Shown: piece by piece, positions 44,306 through 55,765 of the stretch
Numbering within the stretch: position 1 is the first letter of the stretch
How the letters are laid out: every line of letters begins with the position of its first letter
Origin: Meiothermus cerbereus DSM 11376
GTDB taxonomy: Bacteria > Deinococcota > Deinococci > Deinococcales > Thermaceae
Assembly (NCBI RefSeq): GCF_000620065.1
Contig: NZ_KK211063.1
Span: 1-64,000 of the forward strand
Length of the DNA: 64,000 bases
Direction: 5' to 3'
Position numbers and translations under genes: made by a program
Notes under the pieces: model-generated
Told to the model about the DNA's origin: nothing
The model's input: the letters and a program-made list of their open reading frames with translations, nothing else
The model's database searches: none

Positions 44306-44524
44306 AAACCCCCCTTCCTGCATGGCTAAACAACAAGGGGGCTCCCTGCGCGAGACTTCCGTCCCAGCGGCCAAACCCTCAACCCCTGGCTTCGTCGGGC
44401 CACAGAGCTTTACGAATAAATATACGCTTGTGAAATAAGGCGCTACACGCTAGAGGTGGGATTTTCGGGTATTTCGCTACCAGAAAAAATACGGTTTTTA
44501 CCCTAATTGTGTGTAATCCTTCAT
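44306..44524. other. AT-rich intergenic stretch
   Basis: No gene. CCCCCTT and AAGGGGG near 44310-44341 could end the upstream transcript. From 44405 the sequence is AT-rich and probably holds the promoter of the structured leader (TTGTGA at 44428 with TAGAGG at 44451, 17 bp apart, is one weak candidate). Confidence 0.35.
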
Positions 44525-44739
44525 CGGGCCCTAGGGGGCTCGAGCTAAACTAAACGTACCCCCGTTTTGGGGAAACCAAGCCCGAAAGGAGGTTGACAGA
44601 GCACCGCAACGATTTTCCGATTGCAGGTCTGACCCTGAGTTCAAGCAATTCGACGAACTGCCACCACACGGTATGCCACCGTGCGATGGAGCGACTAAGT
44701 CGGCAGGGTGATGCCCGAGCATCCAGAACAATTCTCGGG
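44525..44739 (+). ncRNA. Candidate structured leader RNA upstream of amine oxidase gene
   Basis: A row of complementary pairs: CGGGC 44525-44529 with 44580-44584 closing an inner CCCC/GGGG hairpin (44560-44572); GCAA-CG 44606-44611 with 44618-44624; AGTTC 44638-44642 with GAACT 44655-44659; CACGGT 44667-44672 with ACCGTG 44678-44683; CGAC 44692-44695 with GTCG 44699-44702; GATGC 44710-44714 with GCATC 44719-44723. The last is incompatible with CCCGAG 44714-44719 pairing to CTCGGG 44734-44739, so two folds compete 35 bases before the start codon. It matches no riboswitch class I can recall. No ORF. Confidence 0.5.
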
Positions 44740-44775
44740 AGAAAGGTCACAAGAAGTGTAAAAAGGTAGATTTGC

Positions 44776-46080
44776 ATGAAAACGCTTGTCATAGGTGCCG
44801 GAGCCGCTGGCCTAGCCGCGGCCCAAGACCTTCAGAAAGCGAGACATCAGGTTACCGTGCTTGAAGCCCAACACCGCGTCGGAGGACGCATCCGCACCGA
44901 TAGAAGTTTTGCTGAAGTACCCATCGAGCTGGGCGCGGAGTTCATCCACAGCAGCCAGGTTCCCACCTACCCCCTCCCCCAACAATTCGGCCTGCGAACC
45001 ATCTACTTCAACCAGCAGGAAGACACCCTGGTGCGCCTGCCGGATGGAAACTTGCGTACCATTGCCGAGGTGGGCTCTAAGGTGCTGGGCTACAACAACA
45101 TCCGGATGGTGGACTGGCCCCAAGCTTTGGGCGAGGAATCGCTGGCCGAGTATCTACAGCGCAACCAGCTAGCCGGCCAGAAAATACCCTACAAACTGCA
45201 AGAATACATCTCCGACTTCGATGCTCCAGAAACCCTCAGCGCCAAAGCCGCACTGGAGTTTCTGTACGACAAGTCCGCCGAGGAGGGCGACTACCGCATC
45301 CTCGAGGGCTACGATTAACTAGCGATAAAACTGGCTTCCTCACTGGACATCCGGCTGGGGGCCGCGGTGGAGACGCTCGAGTGGGGCCCTTTTGGTGTCA
45401 AGGCCCTCACCACCGACGGGCGCATCTTCCTGGCCGACCAGGCTGTAATTACCGTTCCCTTGGGCGTGTTGAAAGCCGGGAAAATCCGCTTTGTGCCCGA
45501 GCTGCCCGAGGAGAAGCAGCAGGCCATCCATCAACTCGGCCTGGCCGATGCGGTCAAGCTCTTCTTCCAGTTCGAACAGCCCATCTTCCCGCCTGGCATT
45601 GTGGAGCTGTACCTGCCCGGCCACAGCCCCGACGAGTGGTGGAGCAGCGCCGCCGGCCACGGGGTGGGCTTCGAGATCCTGACCGCCCTGGCCACCGGCC
45701 CCAAAGCCCGCGAGCTCTTGGCCTTGCCCGAGGAAGAGGCCCTGCAAAATGCTCTGCAAACCCTGCGCCGGGCCCTGGGCCAACCCGACCTCACCCCCCG
45801 CAAAGCCCGGCTGGCCCACTGGCAGGACGACCCCTACACCCTGGGGGCCTACTCCAAGGCCAGCGTGGGGGCCTCCCAGGCCCGCAGCATCCTGGCCCGA
45901 CCGGTGGGCAACCGGCTATTTTTCGCGGGTGAACACACCGCCTCCAACGCCTGGGCCGCTACCGTCCACGGGGCCTACGCCAGCGGACGGCGGGCCGCCC
46001 AGGAAATCCTGCAAGCCCGGCCCCTGGTCTACCCTGTACGCCCCAAGCCCCTGCGGCCCGCTTTGCCCGTGGGGGCCTGA
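44776..46080 (+). pseudogene. FAD-dependent amine oxidase interrupted by an in-frame stop
   Basis: Flavin monoamine oxidase-like protein of 434 codons. The Rossmann FAD motif VIGAGAAGLAAAQDL is at 4-18, GGRIRTD at about 38, and the C-terminal FAD block LFFAGEHTASNAWAATVHGAYASGRRAAQEI near 380-410. A TAA at 45316-45318 (codon 181) splits it; the reading frame continues without shift as LAIKLASSLDIRLGAAVE, the expected next block. CAA to TAA is the simplest explanation. AAAGGTAG precedes the ATG. It could be a recent pseudogene, a sequencing error or readthrough. Confidence 0.85.
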
Positions 46081-46115
46081 GGGCCACCCCCATTCCGCAT
46101 GAGATGGGGGTTTTG

Positions 46116-47671: not shown

Positions 47672-47816
47672 ACGGGGCCTACGCCAGCGGACGGCGGGCC
47701 GCCCAGGAAATCCTGCAAGCCCGGCCCCTGGTCTACCCCGCACGCCCCAAGCCCCTGCGGCCCGCTTTGCCCGTGGGGGCCTGAGGGCCACCCCCCATTC
47801 CGCATGAGATGGGGGT
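47672..47816 (+). pseudogene. Duplicated 3' end of the amine oxidase gene
   Basis: 145 bp matching 45968-46111 with two substitutions and one inserted C. It covers the last 37 codons, the stop and about 30 bp of downstream sequence. It lacks the rest of the gene, so it is a dead fragment from a recent partial duplication about 1.7 kb away. Confidence 0.9.
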
Positions 47817-55520: not shown

Positions 55521-55597
55521 TACAAATAACGTAGAAATTCCCCGAAACTCCCCCTTCTTGCGAGAGGTGCCTTCCGTATCGGAGTGAGAAGGCGTTT

Positions 55598-55765
55598 TGG
55601 CAGGTATTCGGACTTCGGGCGGTGGCTGGCGACCGCTCTCTGGCTCGCCAAAGCCCCAATGCACCGTTACCGCTGCGCGACAGTGCCGGACTTGCACCGG
55701 ACTTCCCCACTTTAAGCCTGGGCTACGCGCCCAAGCACCAAAACTTAGCCGGGTTGTACGGCCCT
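55598..55765 (-). ncRNA. Cobalamin riboswitch
   Basis: On the minus strand: GGGGAAGTCCGGTGCAAG, TCCGGCACTGTCGCGCAGC, GGTAACGGTGC and GAGCCAGAGAGCGG match the conserved cobalamin aptamer blocks (usual forms: GGGAA...GGTGCGAATCC, GCACTG...CCGCAACGGT, GAGCCAGGAGACC). It precedes btuF. Exact ends are approximate. Confidence 0.93.

Follow-up and report, generated by a model that had tools for sequence, protein, structure and literature searches.

A candidate cis-regulatory leader RNA with a pseudoknot and a conserved in-frame stop codon at a flavin amine oxidase gene of Meiothermus and related Thermaceae

The sequence studied here comes from Meiothermus cerbereus DSM 11376, a member of the Thermaceae with a genome of 3.03 Mb; the window referred to below is the whole stretch of 64,000 nucleotides that was analysed. 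On its plus strand, a gene at 44776..46080 encodes a flavin amine oxidase (PF01593, PAO/LSD-like), and positions 44525-44775, directly 5' of the oxidase start at 44776, form a stretch without translation. The preliminary description of this DNA had rightly named the gene behind the leader a flavin amine oxidase, but the gene is not a simple intact ORF, since it holds one in-frame stop, a TAA at 45316-45318 (codon 181). Structure prediction gives a confident full-length model (mean pLDDT 87.5) in which residue 181 begins a helix and whose nearest folds are LSD2 and polyamine oxidases. The encoded enzyme has its fold and its invariant flavin-side lysine in common with LSD2/KDM1B and the polyamine oxidases (4gu0, 5lae, 1b37), although it is only 22–28% identical to them. 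This lysine, at codon 261 (45556-45558), is invariant and is located behind the stop. A 145-bp, 98% identical copy of the oxidase 3' end (45968-46111) is found about 1.6 kb downstream, at 47672-47816.

The leader is about 215–220 nt long. Folding confirmed the succession of local hairpins that had been described for it, and the absence of a reading frame also held, because length differences of 1–2 nt among species break every frame. An 80-aa ORF on the minus strand (44550-44792) was rejected, as 1–2 nt indels in relatives disrupt any frame. The segment folds at –89 kcal/mol and its shuffled versions on average at –83.7 (z = –0.96), with 32 of 200 shuffles folding equally well; since this energy is not unusual, the case that the leader is more than chance rests on its relatives. 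The leader had been said to match none of the cobalamin, TPP, FMN, SAM, glycine, lysine, fluoride and c-di-GMP patterns, and covariance-model searches at curated thresholds agreed with this, none of the 4227 Rfam 15 families (including SAM-I/II, preQ1, cobalamin, TPP and FMN) matching it in the window or in seven relatives. A permissive scan gave as its best local score 15.7 bits for RAGATH-36, whose threshold is 70; this match lies on the opposite strand and is at chance level. The Rfam matches in the 64-kb window at curated thresholds were 16S rRNA, two tRNAs and one cobalamin riboswitch, the latter at 55582-55757 on the minus strand (61.1 bits). A tRNA or tmRNA identity for the leader was rejected, the only two tRNAs of the window lying elsewhere. 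The open-licence literature yielded no report of this leader RNA or of the oxidase's in-frame stop.

BLASTN found the leader segment once per genome in 20 of 50 family genomes and not in the other 30. The carriers of its conserved core are Thermaceae of Meiothermus, of a second genus (g2) and of Calidithermus (two genomes), and the oxidase is present in exactly these 20 genomes, the 30 core-less family genomes also being without it. A covariance model of the core (R1), run over 111 genomes of the phylum, recovered the same 20 together with two weak extras; these distant matches (L068 and L069) were rejected because they are weak, overlap coding frames and have no oxidase adjoining. An exact-pattern scan over contigs of 84,980 species returned only Meiothermus and Calidithermus records, and neither a scan of viral contigs for the same motif nor a plasmid search gave a match. 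In all 20 genomes the core lies directly before the oxidase and its position is constant, while the upstream neighbours vary by species group and include bc-complex genes, a quinone oxidoreductase and an enolase-superfamily gene (named from translations). Because these neighbours change between species while the RNA and the oxidase stay together, the two constitute a stable unit. M. cerbereus and Calidithermus share 92% identity over the core, and 96–98% over its last 49 columns, as against 63% over the oxidase coding sequence.

Strong sequence conservation of this kind is typical of small RNA genes, and a core that ends 12–20 nt before the AUG might belong to an independent small RNA gene lying beside the oxidase by chance or by hitch-hiking. 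We consider such a gene very improbable, given the linkage to the oxidase in 20/20 genomes despite varying neighbourhoods, the result of a search of the leader for an intrinsic terminator, which found none, and the lack of any copy without the oxidase. Conservation, covarying pairs and a constant position before one gene are instead all observed, as in structured cis-regulatory leader RNAs, and on these comparisons we regard the leader as a candidate for a new orphan cis-regulatory motif with a pseudoknot. The structured leader RNA put forward in the preliminary description would have fallen had the Thermaceae offered neither conservation nor covariation; the search turned up 20 genomes and covarying pairs.

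The conserved core (44652..44760, 109 nt) consists of helices P1 and P2, a P3 hairpin, an H-type pseudoknot and an AGUGUA end. P1 (CGAC/GUCG) is invariant, whereas P2 joins CCACC to GAUGG or GGUGG; of the 17 distinct sequences, 10 have an A-C mismatch or some other non-standard pair in P2. The best covariation is that of the P3 hairpin (CACGGU-AUGCC-ACCGUG, 44667..44683), in which three pairs are changed on both sides. Stem 1 of the pseudoknot (44706..44724) pairs GGGUG (44706-44710) with CAUCC (44720-44724) in all species and is nearly invariant, its variation amounting to one G-C to G-U change. Stem 2 (44714..44739) pairs CCCGAG (44714-44719) with CUCGGG (44734-44739) and covaries, with compensated changes at three pairs, all of them in one divergent species (M. 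granaticius, L021). The resulting layout is a 5-bp stem, a 3-nt loop AUG, a 6-bp stem and a 9-nt A-rich loop ANAACAAUU, and across sequences both stems pair in 100% of cells. For the structure as a whole, 96–97% of cells are paired, compared with 33–51% when partners are slid, and double-changed cells number 24 against 7 in shuffles that ignore relatedness. Covariation is confined to P3 and to the CCCGAG/CUCGGG helix; stem 1 and P1 are beyond its reach because both hardly vary. In one MAG (L020, 1505-1650, minus strand), a 37-nt insertion between P3 and the 3' strand of P2 forms an additional hairpin and leaves the remaining core intact.

Two mutually exclusive helices had been described close to the start codon, GAUGC/GCAUC at 44710-44723 and CCCGAG/CUCGGG at 44714-44739. 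Both exist, and covariation supports the CCCGAG/CUCGGG helix, but the GAUGC/GCAUC hairpin is not specifically supported: these bases pair equally consistently as GGGUG/CAUCC. The riboswitch-like switch between competing helices that had been read from them finds no support here, since pseudoknot stems explain the pairings better, the SD of the oxidase lies outside all conserved helices and no intrinsic terminator was found. The comparison among relatives suggests that the two "competing" helices are better read as the two stems of a single H-type pseudoknot. This reading is the more economical one, as it lets both helices form at the same time and accounts for the conserved A-rich loop.

An H-type pseudoknot directly before an SD, with one metabolic enzyme behind, and a near-invariant core within variable flanks would also be in keeping with a metabolite riboswitch. 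P1–P3 and the pseudoknot would then form an aptamer whose ligand, perhaps a polyamine or some other amine on which the oxidase acts, would lock the pseudoknot and block or open the SD; a spermidine riboswitch class does exist elsewhere (PMC10853860). However, the motif is tied to a single gene, no second gene or operon carrying it, and the known spermidine class is a variant of SAM-I, whereas neither SAM-I nor any other Rfam family matches here. A riboswitch seems to us rather doubtful.

The 5' part of the leader contains further elements. A –10-like hexamer, TAAACT (44546..44551), aligns at the same place in most relatives, where TAnnnT variants of it occur (TAGACT, TACACT and TACAAT), and it is probably a promoter; a sigma-70 consensus scan found no full promoter. 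Upstream of it, at 44484-44525, a block CAATTGTGnGTAATCCTTCATC is conserved in a subset of Meiothermus species and is possibly a regulator site. A GC hairpin (CCCC/GGGG, 44557..44573), which is present in relatives with a length of 4–7 bp, probably sits at the start of the transcript. It is followed at 44585..44593 by AAAGGAGGT, a perfect 9-nt complement to the 3' end of the organism's own 16S rRNA, which is weaker or imperfect in a few relatives, for example L016 and L018. In sequence, AAAGGAGGT has what characterises a STAB-SD, namely a 5' SD complementary to the 3' end of 16S rRNA from which no ORF begins, and we refer to it as STAB-SD-like. A leader peptide behind AAAGGAGGT was rejected, its start codon being inconsistent across species. 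In the folds of the leaders, a variable middle hairpin (44605..44625) is replaced in other species by hairpins of unlike sequence such as GCCUUG/CAAGGC, GCGUCG/CGACGC and GCGCCG/CGGCGC, an observation made on folds and not a statistical count.

These 5' elements bear on another possible explanation, namely that the core governs mRNA stability or translation by binding a protein, or the 30S subunit by way of the 5' AAAGGAGGU, with no small ligand involved. A perfect SD complement near the 5' end without a start codon and the 5' GC hairpin would suit such a role, for which the STAB-SD offers a precedent (PMC4113751) and which would resemble that of ribosomal-protein operator pseudoknots. However, in a few species this SD complement is imperfect, it leaves the far better conserved core unexplained, and there is no candidate protein, so that we hold this explanation to be decidedly unlikely.

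The end of the leader has the layout of a very short ORF. Immediately 3' of the pseudoknot lies an SD-like sequence, AGAAAGGT (44740..44747), and 7–9 nt behind it GTG TAA, a start codon with an immediate stop (44756..44761); a second SD-like sequence, AAAAAGGT (44760..44767), would serve the oxidase start codon at 44776. This arrangement recurs throughout: 20/20 leaders have an SD-like AAGG or AAAGG (AGAAAGG in most), then 7–9 nt, then AGTGTA and A or G. All 20 species have GTG-TAA or GTG-TAG, and the bases between SD and GTG vary; at the RNA level, AGUGUA and the purine that follows are invariant in all 20. The GUG-stop lies 18–23 nt upstream of the oxidase AUG and is not an N-terminal extension of the enzyme, because its frame relative to that AUG is 0, 1 or 2 depending on the species. 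An SD at working distance, a start followed by a stop, and conservation of the whole are the sequence marks of a minimal start-stop ORF, from which we infer that GUG-UAR is a one-codon start-stop ORF and that ribosomes use it. Read on the opposite strand, the reverse complement TACACT makes a good –10 hexamer, and AGUGUAR might instead be the –10 box of an antisense promoter, or a protein-binding motif, with no start-stop ORF at all. We find this somewhat unlikely, as six bases and a purine are invariant, which is more than can be said of the leader's own –10 box, and as an SD on the sense strand is also kept at the right spacing. The start-stop ORF remains our reading of this element, which the preliminary description had missed along with the conserved stop inside the gene.

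The stop and its context (TAACTAGCGATAAAA, 45316..45330, plus strand) are maintained in Meiothermus and g2. Of their 18 species, 11 have TAA and 7 have TGA at codon 181, and on the gene tree a hand count gives an estimated 3–4 switches between TAA and TGA and zero to sense. The 3' context is the same in 18/18 (CTRGCGATAAAR, CTR GCG ATA AAR; CTAGCGATAAA at the native site), and the 15-mer of stop and context, TRACTRGCGATAAAR, occurs once per genome in the 18 genomes and nowhere else in them. ATA is invariant at codon 184, yet it accounts for 12% of Ile codons elsewhere in these oxidase genes. The two Calidithermus genomes have CGC at codon 181, and outgroup oxidases (about 40% identity) have a sense residue at the site, mostly Ala in the alignment. 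Stops in the G109 and G054 homologues were rejected as equivalents, since sense residues align at site 181.

dN/dS is about 0.1–0.2 before the stop and 0.15–0.32 behind it, with dN well below dS on both sides; judged from these codon substitutions, purifying selection is acting on both gene halves. An in-frame stop in an assembly may indicate a pseudogene or a sequencing error, but the same codon recurs in 18 genomes, near-complete ones included, which together with the low dN on both sides and the invariance of Lys261 behind the stop makes either extremely improbable. Likewise, constraint on both sides, the invariant Lys261 and the confident full-length model render a loss of oxidase function very unlikely. 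A stop that is conserved while the frame continuing past it stays under coding constraint is the pattern of programmed readthrough, and we infer that the full-length oxidase is made through readthrough of the stop codon. Against this, bacterial ribosomes normally read through UAA poorly. The oxidase does not classify as a selenoprotein, because the codon is TAA and not TGA in 11 of the 18 species. Frameshifts of +1 and –1 at the stop were rejected, as neither restores the frame, and so was ribosome bypassing from GAT to GAT within GCGATA, which lands out of the oxidase frame.

Alternatively, the stop could end a first chain and a second chain could start just behind it, for instance at the invariant ATA AAR, the two forming one flavoenzyme. 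The retention of the stop itself through TAA/TGA switching and the invariant ATA-AAR directly behind it are what such a split enzyme would lead one to expect. However, no conserved SD precedes a second start, there is no common start codon, ATA being a very poor one, and the junction itself shows no length change in 18 species. Since neither an SD nor a usable start codon follows the stop and the junction keeps its length, readthrough is favoured and a split enzyme appears unlikely.

A conserved pairing between the leader and the stop site was sought, and no common duplex was found. At the stop, ACUAGCGAU (45318-45326) is complementary over 9 nt to AUCGCUAGU of 16S rRNA. We set this pairing aside as a functional one and consider it probably due to chance: the 16S segment is part of the subunit's folded head, and a rough estimate puts the chance of a 9-mer match somewhere in 16S at a few per cent.

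A model to which we give an even chance is that of a cis-acting translational-control leader on a polyamine-oxidase-like gene whose full-length product needs stop-codon readthrough. Transcription would start from the –10-like box, and the leader would act in cis on translation. The strong 5' SD without a start codon would probably serve ribosome (30S) docking or mRNA protection, and the rigid core, ending in the H-type pseudoknot, would set access to the SD and the GUG-stop, which in turn would gate the oxidase AUG by occlusion or by termination-reinitiation. Since a ribosome on the GUG-stop would cover the oxidase start, the number of ribosomes arriving at the AUG would depend on pseudoknot folding and on termination at the GUG-stop. 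In Meiothermus and g2, the UAA or UGA maintained at codon 181 in its fixed context would be a second gate, and with this stop maintained the full-length enzyme would arise only by readthrough. The signal could perhaps be polyamines or the efficiency of release factors; judging from the enzyme fold, a polyamine signal is attractive. The leader's job appears independent of the stop, because Calidithermus has the leader and a sense codon (CGC) at 181, and leader and stop may serve the same gene independently, as two unrelated gates. An improbable but more integrated possibility is a termination-sensing circuit, in which the pseudoknot-placed GUG-stop and the codon-181 UAA/UGA within CUR-GCG-AUA-AAR would pass only ribosomes that do not terminate. 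If this were true, enzyme output would track release-factor efficiency or polyamine level.

A conserved structured leader that belongs to no Rfam family is a rare find, and the conservation of this one exceeds that of its gene. The stop is held at one position across two genera and in a fixed context, in contrast to bacterial in-frame stops in general, which are reported to be mostly short-lived; should readthrough be confirmed, it would be a long-maintained, chromosomal bacterial case that does not involve selenocysteine. Calidithermus, with the same leader and a sense codon, is a ready-made comparative control for readthrough, and the GUG-UAR end of the leader offers a testable bacterial start-stop element. 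Leader and stop together suggest that the starting and stopping of ribosomes on one message is deliberately controlled here, in a manner not described before.

Several known systems resemble parts of this locus. The SAM-II and preQ1 classes are H-type pseudoknot translational riboswitches. Like them, the leader places a compact H-type pseudoknot, whose loop is rich in A, directly before a ribosome-binding site; it differs from them in having no sequence or Rfam match, larger extra helices and a single associated gene. The spermidine riboswitch, a SAM-I variant that controls biosynthesis genes by transcription termination (PMC10853860), is likewise a leader before a polyamine-related gene, a likeness that holds here only through the similarity of the enzyme to polyamine oxidases; in our leader the Rfam search found no SAM-I fold, and no termination control was seen. 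The STAB-SD of Bacillus thuringiensis cry3A, which protects the mRNA (PMC4113751), shares with it a strong 16S-matching SD that lies near the 5' end of a long leader and starts no ORF, but here the SD-like AAAGGAGGT is one part among several in a larger structured leader, and stabilisation is putative. A start followed by an immediate stop just 5' of the main ORF is also found in the minimal uORF AUGUAA of plant NIP5;1 (PMC11915504) and in the start-stop termination-reinitiation sites of E. coli (PMC9841429); compared with these, the putative element described here is GUG-UAA or GUG-UAG, has its own SD, lies in a bacterium and is conserved in 20 species. In its logic, though not in its descent, a termination-sensing circuit would be a bacterial counterpart of antizyme control. 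Finally, the bacterial in-frame stops analysed by Belinky et al., 2021 (PMC7918605), described there as mostly short-lived and with an example dN/dS of 0.73, have in common with ours an orthologous position and purifying selection on the reading frame; in contrast to them, the stop at codon 181 spans two genera, switches between TAA and TGA without reversion, lies in a gene with dN/dS of about 0.1–0.3 and is followed by a fixed 12-nt 3' context.
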